This document shows positions 1 through 9,800 of a stretch of DNA of 64,000 nucleotides, in pieces; position 1 is the first letter of the stretch, and the number at the start of each line of letters is the position of its first letter. The translations under genes were made by a program, and so were the position numbers. Location of the stretch: assembly GCF_000152785.1 (NCBI RefSeq), contig NZ_CH672414.1, positions 895,472-959,471 on the forward strand. The letters run 5' to 3'. Origin of the DNA: Yoonia vestfoldensis SKA53 (GTDB lineage Bacteria; Pseudomonadota; Alphaproteobacteria; Rhodobacterales; Rhodobacteraceae). Below the pieces are notes generated by a model that was not told the DNA's origin, did not search any database, and saw nothing but the letters and a program-made list of their open reading frames with translations.

Positions 1-4
1 AAAA

Positions 5-862
5 ATGGAATTTTTATTAGCTACTGCGCTCCTTGCAAGTATAGTCGCTCTATTAAAAGTAAGAAGAAATTTAGCAAATGCTATCTTTCAAAATTCGAAC
101 TTAGAGCGCGTAGCAAATCAAGCACGTGCAGCAGACAATGCACTACTTATTTCGGTGCTGTCGCGTGAAATTGCAAATGAGTTGATGGAAAGAGATACAG
201 ACAAGTACAAGAGAAATTTTGAACGGCTTTATGATAAATGGAACGAGATAAAGGCGAAGGATGTAAAATCGCAGCGAGCATATTCTGAAATAATTACATC
301 AAAATATAGAAGTTTTCTGGATTTTGATGAAATTGGGACAAAAGCACATGTTCTTTATGCTGACGCTTTTAGTTGGAAGAGTGATGAGGAATTATGGGAG
401 CTATACGAAAGTATCAGGCTCTACGATGCGCTTAGCTGCGAACTGGATGATGAGTGGCGCTTGCATGGCACTGGCATTTATAAAAATGAATTAGAGCATC
501 TACACACGTACTGTAAAAAGCTCAGCGACACAAAGTTGATAGCGCACTTGTACAAAGCTCGGGAGCAGTTCGACTTATTGAGAAAATTTAATGTTGAGGA
601 AAACAATGAAGGTGAGTGGAGGTATCAAACGCAGGATTATAAGTTTAAAAGAGTTGCTGATTTTACTGAAAGTAGATGGGGCGTGTACGTTAAAAATATG
701 GATAGATATGGAATGTGGGGCTTGTTTGTTGATGAACAACGCGCTTATACAAGCTTTTATGCGGCCGATAAGGATTTTAACGAAGGATATTTGGATTGTT
801 TGCATATGAGGATTTACGTAGATGCACGCGAGTACAGGGGTGTTGAAAAAGAAACGTTCTAA
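5..862 (+). CDS. hypothetical membrane-anchored protein of the AT-rich island
   Basis: I do not recognise this 285-residue protein. Residues 2-17 are hydrophobic and could form one N-terminal membrane anchor. The rest is soluble-looking, charged and rich in Trp, Tyr and Glu, with no motif I can name. Base composition is AT-rich, like the following 4 kb and unlike the backbone after 4969, so it probably belongs to the same integrated element. It faces the minus-strand integrase block and ends 42 bases before the end of the small membrane-protein gene at 905. The ATG sits at the window edge, so an upstream start cannot be excluded. Confidence 0.6.
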   Translation: MEFLLATALLASIVALLKVRRNLANAIFQNSNLERVANQARAADNALLISVLSREIANELMERDTDKYKRNFERLYDKWNEIKAKDVKSQRAYSEIITSKYRSFLDFDEIGTKAHVLYADAFSWKSDEELWELYESIRLYDALSCELDDEWRLHGTGIYKNELEHLHTYCKKLSDTKLIAHLYKAREQFDLLRKFNVEENNEGEWRYQTQDYKFKRVADFTESRWGVYVKNMDRYGMWGLFVDEQRAYTSFYAADKDFNEGYLDCLHMRIYVDAREYRGVEKETF

Positions 863-904
863 TATGTAGGCGGAAGTTGATAAAGATTTTGAGGAGTGCT
901 AAAT

Positions 905-1099
905 TTAGCTTATTGTATTTTTGCCATCTTTGTTAGCGCCATGCATAAAAATAGCAATTATTAAGAATGCACCTGGCAAAAACAATGCGATTGGAAGCCA
1001 AGCCCACCAACGTCTGCCTTTGTAATGAATGATAATAGATGGCGCGATTAGCCAAATAAAAGCCATAAAAAAAAGCGCAAAAATTTCGTCAATGTTCAT
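905..1099 (-). CDS. small two-helix membrane protein downstream of the integrase
   Basis: This 64-residue protein has two hydrophobic stretches, about residues 5-22 and 34-52, separated by a basic Lys-Gly-Arg-Arg turn. The charged tail follows the second helix. I chose the ATG at 1097-1099 because a GGAG Shine-Dalgarno sequence lies six bases upstream. Longer in-frame starts run into the integrase stop region. It follows the recombinase on the same strand and may share its transcript. Small two-helix proteins next to phage-type genes are often holins or exclusion proteins, but nothing here decides between these. Function unknown. Confidence 0.5.
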   Translation of the reverse strand: MNIDEIFALFFMAFIWLIAPSIIIHYKGRRWWAWLPIALFLPGAFLIIAIFMHGANKDGKNTIS

Positions 1100-1127
1100 G
1101 TTCTGCTCCGCAGCGTAATAATTCAAC

Positions 1128-1694
1128 TTACACCAACTCAACAGCGTTTGCCAACTGTTCTGCATTTACGTCAATATATCGCTGTGTTGTTGAAATGCTG
1201 CTGTGCCCAGCAAGTTCTGCAAGCACACGCACCCCAACGCCTTTGTTTGCCAAGCGTGTAATAAACGTGCGCCTGCCGCTGTGCGAACTTGCATCTTTCA
1301 AACTGCACGTTTTATAGATGTTGAGCAGCAGTTGGCACATTGTGTTGGCGCTGAAGAAATTGCCTTTTTGGCTGTAGAACAGTGCTGCTGATGGCGCTGT
1401 GTTGCGTAGGGCAGTGCGATACTGTGCAAGTTGTCTTTGCAGCGTCTTGTTCAAATATACTGTGCGTGTGCATCTGCCCTTTGTCTGTTCAGCAGCAAGC
1501 ACAAAACTGTTTCGCACAGCACCTTGTTCGTCATACACGTCGCCAACACGAAGTGCAGCAAGTTCCTTTGCTCGTAAGCCAGCGTTTATACTGAATACGA
1601 CGATGGTGGTATCACGCGCGTTGTGCTGACGTGTTGCGCAGTAAGCCAACACACGCTTAATCTCTGCGTCTTTCAACGTCTGTGCTTGTCGCAT
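1128..1694 (-). CDS. tyrosine recombinase / integrase, catalytic domain only
   Basis: Site-specific recombinase of the phage integrase (XerC/D-like) family, expected to integrate or excise this element. All catalytic residues are visible: Arg in GLRAKEL, a Lys in EQTKG, HxxR in HSGRR, then GHSS and the Tyr nucleophile in TTQRYI. The chosen ATG (1692-1694) has AGGA seven bases upstream. An in-frame ATG at 1745 would add 17 residues but has no clear ribosome site. Either way the protein is about 190-205 residues, well short of the usual 300 or more, and lacks the N-terminal core-binding domain. The active site is intact, so this may be a naturally minimal enzyme rather than a broken one. Confidence 0.9.
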   Translation of the reverse strand: MRQAQTLKDAEIKRVLAYCATRQHNARDTTIVVFSINAGLRAKELAALRVGDVYDEQGAVRNSFVLAAEQTKGRCTRTVYLNKTLQRQLAQYRTALRNTAPSAALFYSQKGNFFSANTMCQLLLNIYKTCSLKDASSHSGRRTFITRLANKGVGVRVLAELAGHSSISTTQRYIDVNAEQLANAVELV

Positions 1695-1798
1695 TGTTTG
1701 TCCTAAATATGTTGTTTTCCGTGTGTTTATTATATTTTCTGACATTGTGTTTGGACAACGATTGATTTGAAAAAATTGAATTGTTCGATTTCAATTGG

Positions 1799-2002
1799 TT
1801 AAAGCAGAATATCATATAATACTAATAGTATGACATTCTCGTTTATTTGCAGTGTGTTGTGTCTAAACAGTGTGTTTGAACCTACTGTTTTGTTTGAGTG
1901 TGTTTGAAATACTGTGTTGTAAGCAATACGAAACACTACGCCGTCCCCAAGCAAACGGCGTGTGCTGTCGTCTAAACTGTCTCTGCTAACTTCAGTCTGC
2001 AT
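1799..2002 (-). CDS. small hypothetical protein overlapping the rep gene end
   Basis: A possible 67-residue protein whose ATG overlaps the last codons and stop of the Rep-like gene by 11 bases, the arrangement expected for translational coupling. The C-terminus is hydrophobic. No family is recognised. Its coding sequence holds two copies of the 12-mer AGTGTGTTTGAA (1869-1880 and 1897-1908, plus strand), so part of the stretch may be a repeat or binding region rather than a gene. Support rests on position and overlap only. Confidence 0.35.
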   Translation of the reverse strand: MQTEVSRDSLDDSTRRLLGDGVVFRIAYNTVFQTHSNKTVGSNTLFRHNTLQINENVILLVLYDILL

Positions 2003-2543
2003 AAACAGCAGCGTGGGGAATAAATGTGTTGTCTATGTCCCAAGTGCTTATGTCGCCTACAATCTTCTGCTTGTCATAATGTGCCTCTTTTAGAACGTAG
2101 AAGTTTAAGCCTTTGCTGCTGCCTGTTATTGCTTGTGTCTGCACGTCTTCGCTTTGCCTACAGTTTGTCCAAGTATTCCTAAATATGCCGTCAATCGTTT
2201 CTGCTTGCCTAAAGTGCTTGGGGATATTGCCTAATATGATGTTGAAATGTGTTGTGAGTGCTGCTGCTTGCGCTGTGTTGACGGCTTCGATGGTTGTAAG
2301 TGCGAGTGGGCGATAGAGATGCGGCTTGCGGCGCACACAGTTTGGTTGGTTTGGATGCAGCGTTGTAGCAAGCACATTGAGTGTGTGCCGTAAGTCTTGC
2401 TTTGCAGTTTGCACACGTGTGTGCAGCGTTTGGGCTGACAAACGTGCTGGGCAAATGTTTGTGTGCGCAACGATATAGAACTGCGCCAAGTGTGCGTGTG
2501 CATCGAAAAACGTCTGTATGTCGTTCGCGTTGTAATTTCTCAT
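1992..2543 (-). CDS. putative HUH-type replication initiator (Rep-like)
   Basis: This 183-residue protein has features of a single-tyrosine HUH endonuclease, the class that nicks and joins single-stranded DNA in rolling-circle replication. There is a beta-strand followed by H-F-N at residues 99-101, a variant of the metal-binding HxH motif, then YVLK at 149-152, matching the YxxK nucleophile motif. The stretch HFNIILGNIPK and the C-terminal W-D-x-x-N-T-x-I-P recall Rep-like proteins of small integrated elements, from memory only. The second histidine of the HUH pair is Asn, so metal binding may be weakened. It lies first in a minus-strand run with the small coupled gene and the integrase, and is divergent from the gene at 2620. 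Confidence 0.55.
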   Translation of the reverse strand: MRNYNANDIQTFFDAHAHLAQFYIVAHTNICPARLSAQTLHTRVQTAKQDLRHTLNVLATTLHPNQPNCVRRKPHLYRPLALTTIEAVNTAQAAALTTHFNIILGNIPKHFRQAETIDGIFRNTWTNCRQSEDVQTQAITGSSKGLNFYVLKEAHYDKQKIVGDISTWDIDNTFIPHAAVYAD

Positions 2544-2619
2544 CCATCAATTCCACTAAATACTCGTGTGCAAACACCAACACAGTGCTGCTGTGTATTT
2601 ATGCGCAGAGGAGAATTTG

Positions 2620-2949
2620 ATGACGAAAACGGTTTTGGATGAGATTAAAAATGCATTGATGGCTACAAATGCAGTGCAAGGCGAACAAGAGTTTTGCGTG
2701 GCGTGGTTGGGCAAGAACGCAAGTTATATGCGTGTTCTGCGCTTCCAGCAGTTGCAGCCAAGTGCAGATGCGTTGGCAGTGTGTGCAAGTAAATTGAATT
2801 ACTACACACAGAGATTGGAACGCAGCAGTGACAGCAAGCACAAGCAGTGGGCACAGCGCTTTGCAGTGCTGCACAGCAAATGCACAACGGCACTAAACGA
2901 ACAAGCACGGACAAAGTGGCAAGCAGCAGAACGAATGGGCGCTGTGTGA
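2620..2949 (+). CDS. small DUF6626-like protein, possible element regulator
   Basis: A 109-residue protein resembling, from memory, the DUF6626 family found on phage-like elements. The recognisable block is F-C-x-x-W-L-G-K-x-x-S-Y at residues 24-35, then P-S-A-D-A-L and a long helical C-terminal half. The W-L-G-K/P-S-A-D-A-L region could form a helix-turn-helix, which would fit a regulator divergent from rep, but this is inference. The ATG is preceded by AGAGGAG at a good distance. The 76 bases between it and the rep start probably hold divergent promoters. AT-rich like its neighbours. Confidence 0.55.
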   Translation: MTKTVLDEIKNALMATNAVQGEQEFCVAWLGKNASYMRVLRFQQLQPSADALAVCASKLNYYTQRLERSSDSKHKQWAQRFAVLHSKCTTALNEQARTKWQAAERMGAV

Positions 2950-3045
2950 AATGGGTTTTACACGTAGAAAAAACGTGCTGCGGTTTTTGGTAGGGAACTA
3001 CTTACAGTTTTGGGGTGGCAGTTTGGCACATATGGGGGTGTCACA

Positions 3046-3357
3046 GTGACTGCTTTGGCTGATGTGCAACGTGCGTTAAATGCAATACGCAGCATAACAA
3101 GTGAGGAGCAAGCAGCAGTGCGTTTGGAGGTGCTGCGTTTGATGGCGACAATGATTGCAGACGAGGCACGAGACATTGAGGGCGTGAAGGTGAAAGCAGC
3201 AAAGCGTAGCAAGCCGTTGCCAACAGTGCCTATGCCCAAGTCTACCAATGCACCCAAGCCAACCCAAGCAGTGCCAACACAGCAAGCGTCAGCACCGCAA
3301 GTATCTCAGCAAGACTTCGAACCCATACAAGCCACCAAGCCCATAGCACCCAAGTAG
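3046..3357 (+). CDS. hypothetical gene X with Pro/Gln-rich tail, parent of a duplication
   Basis: About 103 residues if it starts at the GTG at 3046, which has GGGGG nine bases upstream. A TTG at 3010 would add 12. The N-terminal half is helical and acidic. The C-terminal half is low-complexity, rich in Lys, Pro, Thr and Gln, and ends P-I-A-P-K. No family is recognised. The stop codon lies two bases before a perfect 9-bp hairpin at 3360-3382. The segment from codon 31 through the hairpin is duplicated at 3900-4123, which places this gene at the start of a modular array of cargo genes. Confidence 0.5.
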   Translation: MTALADVQRALNAIRSITSEEQAAVRLEVLRLMATMIADEARDIEGVKVKAAKRSKPLPTVPMPKSTNAPKPTQAVPTQQASAPQVSQQDFEPIQATKPIAPK

Positions 3358-3382
3358 TGCTTACATCGGAAAACGATGTAAG
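3138..3382 (+). repeat. direct repeat copy 1: 3' half of gene X plus hairpin
   Basis: This segment matches 3900-4123. The first 58 bases differ at only three positions; the low-complexity middle has diverged by small insertions and deletions; the end, including the stop codon and hairpin, is again nearly identical. The hairpin is CTTACATCG (3360-3368), loop GAAAA, CGATGTAAG (3374-3382), a perfect 9-bp stem with no following T-run, so it does not look like an ordinary terminator. Confidence 0.9.
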
Positions 3383-3523
3383 AAGACGTTGCAGTAGTGG
3401 CGTATAGTACGTGTGTGCTTGCTGTATGGCGAGAGTTTGAGGGTAGGGTGCGTTAAGTGCTACACAGCAATAGAGGGCTGTGTGTGCGATTTTTTCTGGA
3501 AAACTGCAGATTTATTGTGTTTG

Positions 3524-3543
3524 AATAGGTTAAACGCTGCTTT
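3524..3543 (+). repeat. conserved 20-mer before cargo gene 1
   Basis: AATAGGTTAAACGCTGCTTT lies 28 bases before the first secreted-protein gene. It recurs with one change at 4316-4335, ahead of the second. The spacers before it share only short blocks, such as GACGTTGC after the hairpin, TGCTACAC and TGTGTGCG. It may be a promoter element or a recombination boundary; the sequence does not decide. Confidence 0.75.
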
Positions 3544-3571
3544 GGATGAGTGGCATAGCGAGATTTGGAAA

Positions 3572-3898
3572 ATGCTAAAAGTCACAAACATTTGCCCATT
3601 CGTGTTTTCAATAATGATTTATGCGACAGCAACAAGCGCTGATGTCGGAGTTATTGCCGCAGAAGATATGCCAGGCTGTGATTACTTCGTCGTTGAGACA
3701 ATTAATGGCTATAGTCTGTTAGAATGGTACGGGGGAACTTGGGCTATTTGGGTTGGTGACAAAGTATACGGCGATTTAAGTTCTTATGGATTTACAGATA
3801 TCGAAGTTGATGGAAGAGGCTTAATGAGGGTTTGGGTTGACGACTTTTGGATGAGTCGAAGTAGCGCTGCTGAACATTTTTTTGAAAAATGTGATTAA
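3572..3898 (+). CDS. cargo gene 1: small secreted protein
   Basis: A 108-residue protein starting at the ATG at 3572. Residues 1-23 form a plausible signal peptide ending A-T-A-T-S-A, so the mature form is about 85 residues. It contains two cysteines, a Trp/Tyr-rich core with N-G-Y-S-L-L-E-W-Y-G-G and an acidic C-terminus. The NGY-LLEWYGG motif recalls small periplasmic proteins of alphaproteobacteria, but I know no function. The stop codon is followed after one base by the second repeat copy, so the gene sits as an insert between two copies of the X-hairpin segment. A longer reading frame from 3413 has no signal peptide and crosses the spacer. Confidence 0.6.
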   Translation: MLKVTNICPFVFSIMIYATATSADVGVIAAEDMPGCDYFVVETINGYSLLEWYGGTWAIWVGDKVYGDLSSYGFTDIEVDGRGLMRVWVDDFWMSRSSAAEHFFEKCD

Positions 3899-3899
3899 T

Positions 3900-4123
3900 T
3901 TTGATGGCGACAATGATTGCAGACGAGGCACGTGACATTGATGGTGTGAAGGTGAAAACCGTACAGCCAAAGCGTGCCAAGCAGTTGCCAACGTTGCCTA
4001 TACTCAATTCTGCCAACACCCCCAAGCCAACCCAAACAGCGCCAACACAGCAAGACTTCGAACCTATACAAGCCATCAAGCCCATAGCGCCCAAGTAGTG
4101 CTTACATCGGAAAACGATGTAAG
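3900..4123 (+). repeat. direct repeat copy 2: 3' half of gene X plus hairpin
   Basis: Second copy of the 3138-3382 segment, 21 bases shorter because of indels in the low-complexity part. The match starts one base after the stop codon of cargo gene 1, a sharp junction. The hairpin is CTTACATCG (4101-4109), GAAAA, CGATGTAAG (4115-4123), identical to the first copy. Downstream comes a 253-base stretch without a gene, related in patches to the spacer after copy 1. Confidence 0.9.
3904..4098 (+). pseudogene. truncated duplicate of gene X (3' part only)
   Basis: The open frame from the ATG at 3904 encodes 64 residues matching the C-terminal part of gene X: M-A-T-M-I-A-D-E-A-R-D-I then the Pro/Gln tail ending P-I-A-P-K. 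The first 31 codons of X are missing and no ribosome site precedes the ATG. It probably remains only as part of the repeat that links the cargo genes. The frame is still open with conservative changes, so a short product cannot be excluded. Confidence 0.6.
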
Positions 4124-4315
4124 GATGACGTTGCGGTGGTGGCGCACAGCGTGTGTAGCAAGCGTACAGTGGGGGTGAGGGCAGTGTGGTTGCTGTTGGC
4201 TGCTACACGCGAGTAGGGCACTATGTGTGCGTTTTTGGCGTGATATGTGGCGATTTGTATGGTAGCGAAGCCTTAGTTGCACAAGGGGCTCACTGGCATA
4301 GTGATGCTTGTAAGA

Positions 4316-4335
4316 AATAGGTTAAACGCCGCTTT
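4316..4335 (+). repeat. conserved 20-mer before cargo gene 2
   Basis: AATAGGTTAAACGCCGCTTT, 19 of 20 bases identical to 3524-3543, lies 41 bases ahead of the second secreted-protein gene. The flanking sequence on both sides differs between the two modules, so conservation is local. Confidence 0.75.
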
Positions 4336-4376
4336 TTATAAATTGCGCAGTCAGGCTGAAGTAAAAAGGAGGAATC

Positions 4377-4682
4377 ATGAGATTTATCTTATTGGCTGCA
4401 ATTGCTTTTAGTTGCATGGGCTTTTCGGCGTATGCTGACACAACGAGAGATTTTTTTCGCTTGTCGAATATCAAAGACGCGTTGGTTGATGGGGATTGTC
4501 AGCGTTATGGCGGATACAAATATCGCGGTGATGTAGCAAAGTTGGCTGTAGAGACAAGCAACAATGGGACAAAGATTGGCAATTATCGGAATGTGGTAAG
4601 ATATGATGGAGGAATTTACGTGCTATGGAGTTATCGTTCTGGCTTAATTACGCGCACAATGGAGTGGTGTATATTTAAATAG
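4377..4682 (+). CDS. cargo gene 2: small secreted protein
   Basis: A 101-residue protein with a classical signal peptide: residues 1-20, basic start, hydrophobic core, ending S-A-Y-A. The mature 81 residues contain two cysteines that could form a disulphide, and many Tyr, Arg and Gly residues. It shares no sequence with cargo gene 1. A strong AAGGAGG ribosome site precedes the ATG. It is the last gene before the backbone. A weak hairpin (GACTA/TAGTC) followed by T7 lies 20-50 bases downstream and could end the transcript. Small secreted proteins on phage-like elements can act in exclusion or as toxins, but no function is visible here. Confidence 0.65.
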   Translation: MRFILLAAIAFSCMGFSAYADTTRDFFRLSNIKDALVDGDCQRYGGYKYRGDVAKLAVETSNNGTKIGNYRNVVRYDGGIYVLWSYRSGLITRTMEWCIFK

Positions 4683-4820
4683 CGATGCACCTGAAACGGA
4701 CTACAGTTCAAATAGTCGCATTTTTTTAGCATACTATGTGAGAGCACTCTAAATATATGTTATTGTTGTCTTTTTTGAAATACCGAATAGCCAAGCGTTA
4801 AGCTGCTCACATTTCGAAAA

Positions 4821-4846
4821 AGGCCTGCATCTTGCAGGCCTTTTTT
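4821..4846. terminator. bidirectional Rho-independent terminator
   Basis: AGGCCTGCA, loop TCT, TGCAGGCCT, flanked by A-run on the left and T6 on the right, so it can work in both directions. It marks the change from AT-rich island to GC-rich backbone and shields the transporter genes from island transcription. It may originally have ended the gene upstream of potB before the element inserted. Confidence 0.85.
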
Positions 4847-4968
4847 GGTTTCGGACCCTTGGACAATATTGGCTAAAAATGCAGCAAATGGTAAAATTTC
4901 CGTCGCTGATATCTCTGTTAACGCGAGTTTCATGTTGATCTTTCCCGCATGACAATGAAGATCGGCCC

Positions 4969-5841
4969 ATGTTCAACAAACTGACATCATCCGAGGGCGG
5001 GCGTGGGCTGTTACTGATCAGCCCGCCGTTTTTCTATGCGCTGCTGTTGATGGCCTTCCCGCTGGGGGCGATCATCTTGTTCAGTTTCTGGACCCAGGAT
5101 TTCATGGATGTCGATACGACATTCACGCTGAACAATTATCGCCAGATCATCGAACAGCCGATCTATGGCGCGCTGCTGCAACGCTCGCTGTTTGTGTCGG
5201 CGGTGGTGACAATGGTCACGGTGCTTTTGGCCTTTCCGATTGCCTATTTCGTGTCGTTCCATGTGCGCCCCGACCGCAAATCGCTATGGCTGTTCCTGAT
5301 CACGATCCCGTTCTGGACCTCTTATCTGATCCGCGTGTTTTTGTGGAAGGTGATCCTGGGGTATAACGGCGTGATCAACACTGGCTTATTGAATATCGGT
5401 CTGATTGATGAACCGCTGACGTTCATCTTGTACAATATCAACGCGGTGATCATCACCCTTGCCCATGCCTTTGCGCCCTTTGCGATCCTGCCGATTTTCG
5501 TAGCTTTGGAAAAGATCGACCGGTCCCTGCTCGAAGCTTCGCGCGATCTGGGGGAAAACAAGGTGATGACGTTTTTCCGCGTGACCTTGCCCTTGGCGAT
5601 GCCGGGCGTGGTGGCGGCGGTGCTGATCGTGTTTATCCCGACCATTGGCGATTATGTCACCCCTGAATTGATGGGCGGGGCCGGTGGCAAGCTGATTGCC
5701 AACATGATCCAAACCCAATTTCTGGCGCTGAATAATGCGCCGTTGGGCGCGGCACTGGCGGTGGTGGCGATGCTGTCGGTCACGGCGATCAGCCTTGTGT
5801 TCATCTTGCTCAACCGGCGCTGGCTGCGGGGCCGGTCATGA
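4969..5841 (+). CDS. potB: polyamine-type ABC transporter permease (PotB family)
   Basis: Inner-membrane subunit of a spermidine/putrescine-type importer, 290 residues with about six helices. The EAA loop that docks onto the ATPase is clear at residues 189-213 (LEASRDLGENKVMTFFRVTLPLAMPG region). The ATG is preceded only by a weak GAAG. Its stop overlaps the start of the second permease by four bases (ATGA), and that gene in turn overlaps the ATPase gene. No binding protein gene is visible upstream, where the AT-rich island begins. Polyamine specificity is inferred from family resemblance; related systems take up other cationic or small solutes. Confidence 0.9.
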   Translation: MFNKLTSSEGGRGLLLISPPFFYALLLMAFPLGAIILFSFWTQDFMDVDTTFTLNNYRQIIEQPIYGALLQRSLFVSAVVTMVTVLLAFPIAYFVSFHVRPDRKSLWLFLITIPFWTSYLIRVFLWKVILGYNGVINTGLLNIGLIDEPLTFILYNINAVIITLAHAFAPFAILPIFVALEKIDRSLLEASRDLGENKVMTFFRVTLPLAMPGVVAAVLIVFIPTIGDYVTPELMGGAGGKLIANMIQTQFLALNNAPLGAALAVVAMLSVTAISLVFILLNRRWLRGRS

Positions 5842-6638: not shown

Positions 6639-7720
6639 CAGCTTTGATCACGCTCAAGGGCGTCAATAAATATTACGGCGATTATCATGCTTTGCGTGAC
6701 ATCGACCTGACGATCAATACGGGCGAGTTTTTCTCGCTTCTGGGGCCGTCGGGCTGTGGCAAGACCACATTGCTGCGCACCATCGCGGGCCTCGAGGATG
6801 TGTCCGACGGGGTCGTGATGATCGGCGGCAAGGATATGCGCGGCGTCTCCGCCAATTTGCGCCCGACCAATATGGTGTTTCAATCTTATGCGATCTTTCC
6901 GCATCTGAGCGTGGCGGAGAATGTGGCCTTTGGCCTGCGCAAGCGCACTGATCTGAACAAGGACGACAAGGCCAAGATGGTCGAAGATGCCTTGGCCATG
7001 GTTGGCTTGTCCGGCTATGGCAAGCGCGCCTCGCATGCCCTGTCGGGGGGGCAGCGTCAGCGGGTCGCCCTGGCGCGCGCGCTGATCCTGAAACCCAAGG
7101 TTTTGTTGCTGGATGAGCCTTTGTCCGCGCTGGACAAAAAGATGCGCGAACAGATGCAGGTCGAACTGATCCGCCTGCAACGCCATGTCGGCATTACCTT
7201 TATTCTGGTCACCCATGATCAGGAAGAAGCCTTGGTCATGTCCGACCGGATCGCCGTGATGTTCGAAGGCGAGATCGGGCAATTGGCTGATCCCGAAACG
7301 CTCTACCGTCGCCCCAATTCGCGGCGGGTTGCAGAATTCATCGGCAAGATGAACTTTTTGCGCGCTGATGTGCTGCAGGTCGGTGACACGATCGATGTCG
7401 ATGTTGCCGGTCTTGGGCGTGTGTCGGTGAATGCCGAACAGGCGCCCATGGCGCTGCACAAAGGGGCCGCCGTGGCTGGTGTGCGCCCCGAGACACTGGC
7501 CATCTTGTTTGCGGGTGAAACAACCGAGCGCAAGCTGATCGACGGCGTGGTGGACGAGGTCGTCTATTACGGTGACATGACCTATTACGACGTGCGCATT
7601 GCAGGCGTGGACCAGCCGCTGAATATCGCGATGAAAAACCTGATCGGCAGGCCGGTGCTGGATGTCGGCACCAGGACCAAGGTGGTTTGGGACGAACGGT
7701 CGCTGGTTATTCTGGCGTAG
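6635..7720 (+). CDS. potA: polyamine-type ABC transporter ATPase (PotA family)
   Basis: ATP-hydrolysing subunit on the cytoplasmic face, 361 residues. Walker A is GPSGCGKTT at 37-45, the signature LSGGQRQ at 136-142, Walker B VLLLDE at 156-161, with H-D in the switch loop. The C-terminal third is the TOBE domain of the PotA/MalK type. The start is a TTG: AAAGGGGG lies seven bases upstream and no closer ATG fits. It overlaps potC by four bases. Hairpins and a copy of a dispersed repeat follow the gene (about 7721-7790). Confidence 0.93.
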   Translation: MTALITLKGVNKYYGDYHALRDIDLTINTGEFFSLLGPSGCGKTTLLRTIAGLEDVSDGVVMIGGKDMRGVSANLRPTNMVFQSYAIFPHLSVAENVAFGLRKRTDLNKDDKAKMVEDALAMVGLSGYGKRASHALSGGQRQRVALARALILKPKVLLLDEPLSALDKKMREQMQVELIRLQRHVGITFILVTHDQEEALVMSDRIAVMFEGEIGQLADPETLYRRPNSRRVAEFIGKMNFLRADVLQVGDTIDVDVAGLGRVSVNAEQAPMALHKGAAVAGVRPETLAILFAGETTERKLIDGVVDEVVYYGDMTYYDVRIAGVDQPLNIAMKNLIGRPVLDVGTRTKVVWDERSLVILA

Positions 7721-7765
7721 GGTGGCGTGAAGTCCACCTTACCTGTCCGGCTGCGCCGGCGCTCC

Positions 7766-7792
7766 GCGGGGGATATTTAGGCTCGGAAGATC
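7766..7792 (+). repeat. dispersed 3'-end repeat, diverged copy a
   Basis: GCGGGGGATATTTAGGCTCGG resembles the better conserved copies at 13157, 23378 (minus) and 43890. As in those, it lies downstream of a gene (potA) in the gene's own orientation and behind a GC hairpin (CCGGC-TGC-GCCGG). It is the weakest copy. Confidence 0.5.
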
Positions 7793-7795
7793 GGG

Positions 7796-8311
7796 TCAGT
7801 CGAGCACCATGGCAAAGCGCAGCCCCAGCGTTTCCAGCCCCGGATTGAGATCCTTCAGATCGCCATTGGACCGGTGATCCGCCAGCACGCTCAGCGTTGC
7901 GCCATTGTCAAAGCTATAGCCGACACCCAGCGCGCTGCGGAATTCCAAGGGCAGCCCAAGGTCCGGCCCATCGCCCTGCGCGTAAAGCCCCGGCATGAAA
8001 GACGCCTCGACAAAAAATGGCCCGTCGATCACCTTTTGTGTCGTCCATTTTGCACCAGCCCCGACCCACAGGCTGCCGTCACTGGTCGCACTGGCCCCGA
8101 TCACCGGCTGGAACACGCCGTACCGGCGCGCCAGATCATAGGTGACATAGATTTCCTCGCTGATGCTGTCGTCCTGAAAGACCACGTCGCTGATCTGCAA
8201 AGCCGCACGCGCGGGCGCCTCTTGCAGCTGGTAGCAGCCGGTTGGACATTCATTCAGATAGGTATCGGTCAGACCGGTGATGAAAAAGATGATCGCGAAA
8301 GTTCCGTCCAT
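7796..8311 (-). CDS. pagL: lipid A 3-O-deacylase (PagL-like) family outer-membrane protein
   Basis: Outer-membrane beta-barrel hydrolase predicted to remove an acyl chain from lipid A. The catalytic triad fits PagL exactly in spacing: His146, Ser148 and Glu160 in ADHRSNG...NPGLET, the same H-x-S and +14 Glu as described for Pseudomonas PagL. The alternating hydrophobic pattern and the final aromatic-containing strand fit a barrel. The N-terminus is short for a signal peptide; the ATG at 8311 has AGGATC seven bases upstream, overlapping the stop of the TetR gene. It is probably the last gene of a minus-strand run that starts at the ATPase at 12643. Confidence 0.75.
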   Translation of the reverse strand: MDGTFAIIFFITGLTDTYLNECPTGCYQLQEAPARAALQISDVVFQDDSISEEIYVTYDLARRYGVFQPVIGASATSDGSLWVGAGAKWTTQKVIDGPFFVEASFMPGLYAQGDGPDLGLPLEFRSALGVGYSFDNGATLSVLADHRSNGDLKDLNPGLETLGLRFAMVLD

Positions 8312-8320
8312 GATGTGATC

Positions 8321-8938
8321 CTATGTATCGGGGTCAAGCAGGCCAAGCCCGCGCAGATAGATGCCAATGCCGGTTTCCAGCAGGTCATCGGGGGGAAAGG
8401 GACTTGTCCGGCCCGGATTGCCGCGCGCGAACAATTCCACCACCCCATGCGACATCGCCCAGACATGGGCGCTGAACATCTGCGCAGGCGGGCGTTTGTC
8501 GGCGGGGATATGTTGGCTGAGCGCGGCTGCCGCCTTTTCGAGCACGCCCATCGCGCGGGTCGCCACGGCATGTAATTCCGGCGAATGGTTGATCGACACG
8601 CCCGATTCGAACATTGCGATGTAATGCCCCGGATAGCGCCGCGCAAAGGCCAGATAGGCCCGCCCCGTCGCCCCGAACGCCGCCAGCGCCGACGGTTGCC
8701 CATCCGCAAAAGCATGGTCCATCAGATCGGCGAAAATGGCATAGCCTTCTTGGGCGGCAGCGGCGATCAAGTCTTCACGCCCGGCGAAATGCCGATAGAC
8801 CGCCGCGGGGGTGACACCTGCCTCGCGCGCGGCTTCGGATAGGGTGAACCCTGTTGGCCCGCGTATTTCGATCAGCCGCAGACAGCCGTCGATCAATGCG
8901 GCGCGCAGATTGCCGTGATGATAGCCCCGCTTAGTCAT
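8321..8938 (-). CDS. TetR-family transcriptional regulator
   Basis: A 205-residue regulator. The N-terminal helix-turn-helix (about residues 9-55) contains the typical T-L-S-E-A-A-R-E-A-G-V-T-P-A-A-V-Y-R-H-F block, and the C-terminal half resembles the TetR_C_33/WHG type ligand domain. The chosen ATG overlaps the stop of ppk2 (ATGACTAA), and its own stop overlaps the ribosome site of pagL, so all three are likely coupled. It may control the lipid A deacylase or the whole run. No operator could be located with confidence. Confidence 0.88.
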   Translation of the reverse strand: MTKRGYHHGNLRAALIDGCLRLIEIRGPTGFTLSEAAREAGVTPAAVYRHFAGREDLIAAAAQEGYAIFADLMDHAFADGQPSALAAFGATGRAYLAFARRYPGHYIAMFESGVSINHSPELHAVATRAMGVLEKAAAALSQHIPADKRPPAQMFSAHVWAMSHGVVELFARGNPGRTSPFPPDDLLETGIGIYLRGLGLLDPDT

Positions 8939-9800
8939 GCCACAGATCGGGGCCACCGGCGATTTTGGGGTCCATAACACCCAAAGCATCGACATCTTTG
9001 CGTTTGTAATCAAGCTGATGCAGGATCGACCTGATCACATTTATCCGCGCGCGCAGCTTGTCATCGCCCCGCACGACGGTCCAGGGTGCAAATGTCAGAT
9101 GGGTCCGGTCCAGCGTTTCGCGGATCGCGTCAGAATACGCATCCCACAGCGCCAAACCGTCAACATCAATCCGGCTGAGTTTCCATTGCTTGAGAGGGTC
9201 TTGCTCGCGGTCCAGAAACCGCTGCAATTGCGTCGCCCGCCCGATATTGAGCCAGATCTTGAACAGGATGATCCCTTCATTGGCCAGCATATGCTCGAAT
9301 TGAGGAAGCTGCGCAAACCAGCAGGCGCGCTGTTCCGGCGTGCAGAACCCGAACACATGTTCGACAACGCCGCGATTGTACCAGCTGCGGTCGAACAGGG
9401 TGATTTCGCCCTTGGCGGGCAGATGCGCGACATAGCGTTGGAAATACCATTGGGCCGCCTCGTGATCGCTGGGCTTGGGCAGGGCAACAAGGCGCGCGCC
9501 GCGCGGGTTGAGGTTTTCGCGGAACCGTTTGATCGTGCCCCCTTTGCCTGAGGCGTCGCGTCCCTCAAAAACCACCACAACGCGTTGGCCGGTGTCGCGG
9601 ACCCAGGCCTGCATCCTGACCAATTCGACCTGAAGCCGGTTCATCGCATCGGTGTAATCATCCTTGTCGTACCGACTGTCATAGGGAAAGTGCGGGTTGA
9701 GGATGCCATCCTTGGCCCTACCCTTGATCAGGTCACGGATGGCCTGCGGCGCGTCTTGGTTAAAATAGCGGCTGATCGCGCCGTCGAATGGCCGTTCCAT
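8931..9800 (-). CDS. ppk2: polyphosphate kinase 2 family protein
   Basis: Uses polyphosphate to phosphorylate nucleotides (PPK2 family). 289 residues with the P-loop GRDASGKGG at 80-88, the lid-forming basic helix after it, and the Walker B region FDRSWYNR at 136-143, followed by the diagnostic V-V-E-H-V-F-G-F. I chose the ATG at 9798-9800 as it gives the normal family N-terminus; a longer reading frame adds Pro/Arg-rich sequence. It lies between the hydrolase and tetR genes on the same strand. Whether GDP or ADP is preferred cannot be told. Confidence 0.9.
   Translation of the reverse strand: MERPFDGAISRYFNQDAPQAIRDLIKGRAKDGILNPHFPYDSRYDKDDYTDAMNRLQVELVRMQAWVRDTGQRVVVVFEGRDASGKGGTIKRFRENLNPRGARLVALPKPSDHEAAQWYFQRYVAHLPAKGEITLFDRSWYNRGVVEHVFGFCTPEQRACWFAQLPQFEHMLANEGIILFKIWLNIGRATQLQRFLDREQDPLKQWKLSRIDVDGLALWDAYSDAIRETLDRTHLTFAPWTVVRGDDKLRARINVIRSILHQLDYKRKDVDALGVMDPKIAGGPDLWHD

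Follow-up and report, generated by a model that had tools for sequence, protein, structure and literature searches.

A short palindrome as a possible boundary of exchangeable gene cassettes in small integrative elements, mainly of marine Rhodobacteraceae

The hairpin that occurs twice in a 64,000-nucleotide stretch of the Yoonia vestfoldensis SKA53 genome (the window) may be a palindromic recombination site of 21-23 bp, situated at the edges of exchangeable cargo cassettes in small integrative elements, here mainly of marine Rhodobacteraceae; judging from sequence comparison, we put the probability of this reading at slightly better than one half (about 0.57). The two hairpins of the window probably mark the edges of such swappable gene cassettes, and the strongest evidence comes from outside the window: in one element (L125) seven copies of the hairpin separate blocks of genes, and this element shares with a second one (L069) a piece that loses similarity at its outer palindromes, which together suggest that the hairpin is a recombination site. 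The preliminary description of this DNA had proposed hairpin-linked cargo cassettes with hairpins that serve as single-strand recognition sites of a Rep protein; its cassette interpretation is sustained by the variation of the cargo and by the palindromes that delimit blocks in the two other elements, but the Rep-read single-strand hairpin is not.

The repeats are part of an element of ~6.5 kb, whose right end lies inside the window and which is inserted at the 3' end of rpsI. The window corresponds to G000:C1:895472-959471. The rpsI gene (named from its frame, by eye) is located upstream of it in locus L003, followed by a 495-aa integrase, and attL is found in the same locus. The core CCAAGCG[CT]TAA is present at attL, at attR and at an empty site in G678 (L110), which identifies an island integrated at rpsI, and the empty site places the integration at the last rpsI codons. 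At E 1e-100 the 495-aa integrase is found in 2 of 56 genomes of the genus, the second copy containing internal stops, while smallInt, Rep, DUF6626 and X are common to the window element and its relatives. Within the window the element comprises:

1128..1745, minus strand: small tyrosine recombinase "smallInt", 205 aa, catalytic domain only (PF00589, 1.4e-28)
1808..1837, no strand assigned: candidate 12-6-12 core site of smallInt (AATATCATATAA-TACTAA-TAGTATGACATT), an inverted repeat upstream of smallInt
1992..2543, minus strand: Rep-like protein, 183 aa, 84-90% identical in L054-L056
2620..2949, plus strand: DUF6626 protein (PF20331, 3.1e-38)
2951..3049, plus strand: small ORF "W" (32 aa), a frame overlapping the start of X, with a similar ...YL.FWGG... 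peptide in several relatives
3046..3357, plus strand: gene X, full copy, for which a GTG start was chosen
3360..3382, plus strand: palindrome 1, proposed cassette boundary (CTTACATCG-GAAAA-CGATGTAAG)
3383..3571, plus strand: A-type spacer with small ORF "Y" ending ...DEWHSE, assigned by similarity to L054-L056
3572..3898, plus strand: cargo 1, 108 aa, secreted by eye
3900..4098, plus strand: partial gene X (3' part), A-like
4101..4123, plus strand: palindrome 2
4124..4376, plus strand: B-type spacer with small ORF "Y" ending ...HWHSDACKK, assigned by similarity to B types
4377..4682, plus strand: cargo 2, 101 aa, secreted by eye
4791..4801, plus strand: attR core CCAAGCGTTAA at the 3' end of rpsI, with an empty site in the same-genus genome G678 (L110)

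The duplication of the 3' part of X together with the hairpin, on which the preliminary description was built, is real: 3138-3205 matches 3900-3967 (90%), 3200-3286 matches 3968-4054 (84%) and 3307-3382 matches 4048-4123 (96%). Both copies of X share the stop codon, which is followed by an identical 23-base palindrome (3360-3382 and 4101-4123) that forms a perfect 9-bp hairpin around a GAAAA loop, and the two palindromes are direct repeats. Because the 23-base hairpin, treated as RNA, folds with a z-score of -8.9 and because the exact pattern is confined to these elements, a chance origin is unlikely. Other parts of the unit as first drawn held up less well. The two 20-mers (3524 and 4316) share 19 of 20 positions, but they are not a clean part of the unit, since their placement relative to a GGCATAG motif differs (before it in copy 1, after it in copy 2) and the 20-mer itself varies among A-type relatives. 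Similarly, copy 2 begins at 3900, a single base (3899) after the stop codon of cargo 1, but there is no palindrome at this junction; the edge that we propose for the cassette is the hairpin and not the start of the X repeat. Database searches with cargo 1 and cargo 2 gave no match below E 0.1, and Rfam, applied to positions 1-5000 of the window and to seven loci, gave no match for the hairpin or the spacer. The GGCATAGTGA motif was considered as a promoter and dropped, its spacing being unsuitable by eye; it is kept as the end of a small ORF. In many of the DUF6626 elements examined, X lies between two conserved small frames, W (...YLQFWGGSLA...) and Y (...WHS[DE]A...), found in the window at 2951-3049, and at 3413-3571 and 4186-4320, respectively.

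The window element is a mosaic, in which smallInt and spacer 2 are B-like and Rep, DUF6626 and spacer 1 are A-like; L062, of B type, has the same Rep type as the window. Spacer 1 (3421-3521) is 85-93% identical to the A types L054-L056 versus at most 74% to B types, and the spacer 2 region (4121-4221) is 82-100% identical to B types versus 66-84% to A types. Within copy 2, 30 of the 32 diagnostic bases between 3900 and 4062 are of type A, the exceptions at 3965 and 3967 being B; between 4124 and 4320, type B accounts for 47 of 50, with A at 4129 and 4290 and one base of neither type. The last A-diagnostic base is at 4060 and is followed by B-diagnostic bases at 4065 and from 4124 onwards, the switch falling in ~60 bp of near-identity between the types; given the B base at 4065, the switch after 4060 may be located just upstream of the hairpin or in a stretch that includes it. 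A cassette might travel as a circle, or an equivalent form, with one palindrome, which would recombine with the one in a resident element. For the window this would mean that a cassette made up of A spacer, cargo 1, 3' part of X and hairpin entered an element with the order X, hairpin, B spacer, cargo 2 at its hairpin. Such an insertion fits copy 2, whose A-like sequence extends to 4060 and whose sequence beyond the hairpin is B-like. Neither an excised circle nor an alternative junction was encountered. The main rival to the cassette model is unequal recombination between tandem elements, which yields the same order in the window. Ordinary homologous or illegitimate recombination between co-resident A and B elements, for example tandem integration at rpsI followed by deletion, could have made the duplication, the hairpin being a conserved passenger with another task, and we regard this as rather unlikely though deserving of weight. 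It is favoured by the location of the copy-2 switch within near-identical sequence with a B base already at 4065, and by further type switches at places without a palindrome, at about -550 (in the integrase, from L062-like to A-like), 1250 and 1850, which indicate that recombination was not confined to the hairpin and that ordinary mosaicism occurs too. Also in its favour is L037, where a second integrase (7500-9100) directly follows an rpsI-type att core, suggestive of tandem accretion of elements.

The DUF6626 family occurs in 23 of 394 genomes of the bacterial family (above the cut-off in 20), and when a species-level collection of genomes was scanned with a DUF6626 alignment, 43 loci were obtained. 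The platform of X, hairpin and spacer is present in eight relatives, several of which are MAGs, comprising three A types (L054-L056) and five B types (L057-L060, L062); L037 is the L059 element and L039 the L060 element, each counted once. L061 is close in DUF6626, but it has no matching X or hairpin. In agreement with the initial expectation of exchangeable cargo, what follows the conserved hairpin differs: six of the eight relatives carry a frame there, none of them matched by the cargo proteins of the window, and in the other two none was found. Homologous elements with the same two cargo genes in the same order, which would speak against exchange, were looked for and not encountered. Between spacer and attR, the relatives contain:

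L054: two ORFs
L055: a protein secreted by eye
L056: a lipoprotein by eye
L058: a possible P-loop protein, below the Pfam cut-off
L059: a GNAT acetyltransferase, above the Pfam cut-off
L062: a 76-aa frame
L057: no frame of 30 aa on that strand
L060: no frame of 60 aa seen

The two cargo proteins of the window have no homologue among the 43 loci at E 1e-3, and the cargo proteins compared are mutually unrelated, with a best E of 0.25 among the nine compared (nine of ten, L058 being excluded; L062 was left out, and two proteins, from window 5-862 and the L039 GNAT, belong to the other cargo slot). Two hairpins 41 bp apart are present in two of the eight relatives. Divergent sequence behind the platform is also seen in palindrome-free elements (L076/L092, L044/L045), a further point on the side of ordinary recombination.

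The exact 21-bp palindrome, TTACATCG-N5-CGATGTAA, is found in 3 of the 394 family genomes, at four sites that are all inside such elements, and in 1 of 390 genomes of the order (a set overlapping with the family set), which is the window's own genome; the reversed pattern, used as a control on the family genomes, occurs among the matches listed in one genome (G239). One further copy with two mismatches is located elsewhere in the window's own genome. With at most one mismatch, the palindrome is present in 8 of 10 genomes of relatives, and among 35 further genomes chosen for a DUF6626 match it is present in 4 and absent from 31; three of these four were already known, and the copy in G689 (one mismatch) may be due to chance. 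The copies found have the 8-5-8 layout, and their placement varies: before X in L082 (one mismatch), after X in the A and B types, after Y in L086 and at three places in L069. Palindromes in four viral contigs were taken as chance, no element protein being matched there. Searches for DUF6626 relatives gave 12 candidate stretches in viral contigs, none of which was confirmed, and none in phages and plasmids, and the hairpin region had no match in plasmids and phages.

An array of palindromes was found in the Yoonia MAG G684, reached through L062, which has 10 sites at one mismatch or less, seven of them within 8.1 kb of one contig. In the L125 array, the seven copies lie between 10127 and 18207 (two with one mismatch), with centres in both orientations, and they separate blocks of genes in the manner of a site-separated cassette array. 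Some intervals contain one small gene each; others contain a block of three genes (275, 422 and 572 aa), a W-X-Y block, and a block that combines a second small recombinase (Int2) with a protein secreted by eye. This Int2 block is repeated up to the contig end, and it ends in a W gene that is only partial, followed by X, Y and a palindrome. The longest frame of gene b begins upstream of its own site and Y runs into the palindrome; the other named genes are located between sites. Since the array is at the end of a MAG contig, an assembly error is possible. L069 (IMCC1909) contains three sites, some of them inverted, and a three-gene block and an X-Y block in the same order as in L125. The two-block piece common to both elements measures 4.3 kb with 75% nucleotide identity, and the three proteins are 78-81% identical. 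At one outer edge of this piece, flank similarity has a z-score of 1.2 outside the palindrome versus 6.4 inside, and at the other of 2.5 outside (thus not nil; BLAST extends 18 bp beyond the palindrome) versus 9.1 inside, whereas the flanks of the inner palindrome are similar on either side (z 7.1 and 5.8). The centres of the outer sites are in opposite orientation in L069 and L125, as would be expected of hybrids of partner sites, and that of the inner site is not. Ordinary recombination leaves unexplained both the seven palindromes between the blocks of L125 and the drop in similarity of the 4.3-kb shared piece at palindromes. The three-gene cargo block is located at 12380-16189 in L125 and 8949-12767 in L069. 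Its 421/422-aa protein has a DSGGFQ motif, which is suggestive of tRNA-guanine transglycosylases; the L069 copy has no match in Pfam, PADLOC or PHROGs. A tRNA-Cys end seen by eye beside the array was confirmed neither by ARAGORN nor by Rfam, both of which find only an SRP RNA upstream.

If the palindrome is a recombination site, smallInt is one candidate for the enzyme that reads it. A homologue is present in 36 of the 43 loci and in 13 of 20 loci of another set, and the family is represented in 11 of 11 palindrome-bearing elements with a readable flank (L059 and L086 are cut by a contig end). However, this role is weakened because smallInt has a different core site of its own, of 12-6-12 layout, which resembles the resolution sites of TnpI or dif systems. 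In 22 of 25 loci (all but L056, L067 and L070) the best inverted repeat falls at the aligned position, and its arms covary between loci; taken locus by locus, 13 of 25 cores reach the level of at most 3 in 100 shuffles, and that of the window is not significant (15 of 100 as good). The spacer is even in smallInt's own core and odd in the palindrome. Co-clustering of the palindrome with a smallInt lineage was sought and not seen, L069 sitting apart. Int2 is found in three other genomes of the family at ~70% identity, and these contain no exact palindrome and, beside Int2, no repeated palindrome of that kind.

The mechanism suggested in the preliminary description, in which the HUH-like Rep would nick and join the hairpin as a single-stranded site, we now consider improbable. 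The window encodes Rep, many relatives have a homologue of one of two Rep types, and the hairpin folds stably, all of which would suit this mechanism; the HUH-like character is presumed from a motif read by eye, and the protein has no Pfam match above the cut-off (its alignment left out the rows of L081 and L085, which have an internal stop). Against it, L069 has three sites and no Rep homologue within 16.3 kb (two Rep queries, E 1e-3), the arms of the palindrome differ by single mismatches only, with no compensatory changes, and the small recombinase has another core. Moreover, HUH/REP palindromes have a conserved tetranucleotide 5' of the hairpin, and the GTAG found there in the window is absent at the second copy of L058 and in L069, L082 and L086, so that no rule of the REP/RAYT kind applies. 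In other loci, the place of Rep is occupied by a conserved, apparently non-coding stretch (CAAACCCGTTCTGATGTGAGACGG...), located at about 7280-7760 in L069, between smallInt and DUF6626 in L063/L041 and L067, and at about 9740-9830 in L139; Rfam gave no match for it in L069, L063 and L067. A perfect palindrome with conserved half-sites would also suit a dimeric regulator, for example DUF6626, which is HTH-like by eye, and the palindrome would then be its operator. We consider this very improbable: in an alignment with the rows of several loci trimmed at the ends, the DUF6626 proteins of L069, L082 and L086 are only 39, 37 and 36% identical to that of the window while the palindrome is nearly unchanged, and an operator is not expected at the edges of unrelated gene blocks.

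Returning to palindrome-bounded cassettes, the available excerpts of the literature on rpsI elements, invertible switches and cassette-like systems contain no description of this site, and a literature search found no paper on DUF6626. The arrangement resembles integron attC cassettes in its arrays of small genes, each beside a palindromic recombination site, and in the variation of cargo behind a platform; it differs in that there is a single short perfect palindrome, without the two box pairs (R and L), with centres in both orientations. SmallInt scores 40 bits on the integron integrase model TIGR02249 versus a cut-off of 265, with 149-195 as its best and only stretch, and the 495-aa integrase, the only other recombinase scanned, has no match to it. 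The core consensus of attC is GTTRRRY, and the GTTAAAC of the window's 20-mer is GCTAAAT in L055 and GGTAAAT in L056, so that such a core is not retained. FimB and FimE are catalytic-only tyrosine recombinases of a length similar to smallInt, and the sites of L069 are inverted as in their switches, whereas those of the window are direct repeats; on the DNA-invertase models smallInt stays far below the cut-offs (PRK09870, 48 bits versus 221; PRK09871, 29 versus 222). XerC/XerD sites are ~28 bp long, with an 11-6-11 layout and a 6-bp spacer. The dif modules of Acinetobacter (pdif, XerC/XerD), as far as described in the excerpts available, are similar in that discrete genes lie between short recombination sites, but the site found here is of 8-5-8 layout with near-perfect arms, and the elements are integrated and are not Rep_3 plasmids. 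According to the same excerpts, dif modules undergo inversion and deletion and are exchanged among small replicons (PMC13141974). Integration at rpsI is shared with small integrative elements such as IMESag-rpsI, which in the accessible parts of their descriptions differ from the elements analyzed here, with their DUF6626/X/Y platform and palindrome-bounded cargo in Alphaproteobacteria.

We propose, tentatively and at somewhat less than even odds, a cassette system of small integrative elements in marine Rhodobacteraceae that is separate from integrons and dif modules, in which a 21-bp perfect palindrome in either orientation would bound the cargo, a recombinase dedicated to it (a tyrosine recombinase reduced to the catalytic domain, or another enzyme) would act on it, and a partial platform gene may be located just upstream of the palindrome. 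To our knowledge, few routes are known by which bacteria gather single genes as cassettes, and arrays of a new palindromic site in such tiny elements would provide a second model of how cassettes are born. If this is true, partial platform genes just upstream of the palindrome would record how cassettes arose, and the origin of cassettes becomes testable through the partial genes at their ends, which are X in the window and W in L125. The window's own genome harbours a second DUF6626 element (G000:C1:1530365; L028, L043), which is without the palindrome. In L055 (HTCC2083), a likely insertion sequence, recognized by eye at 8443-9660, interrupts X near its start.
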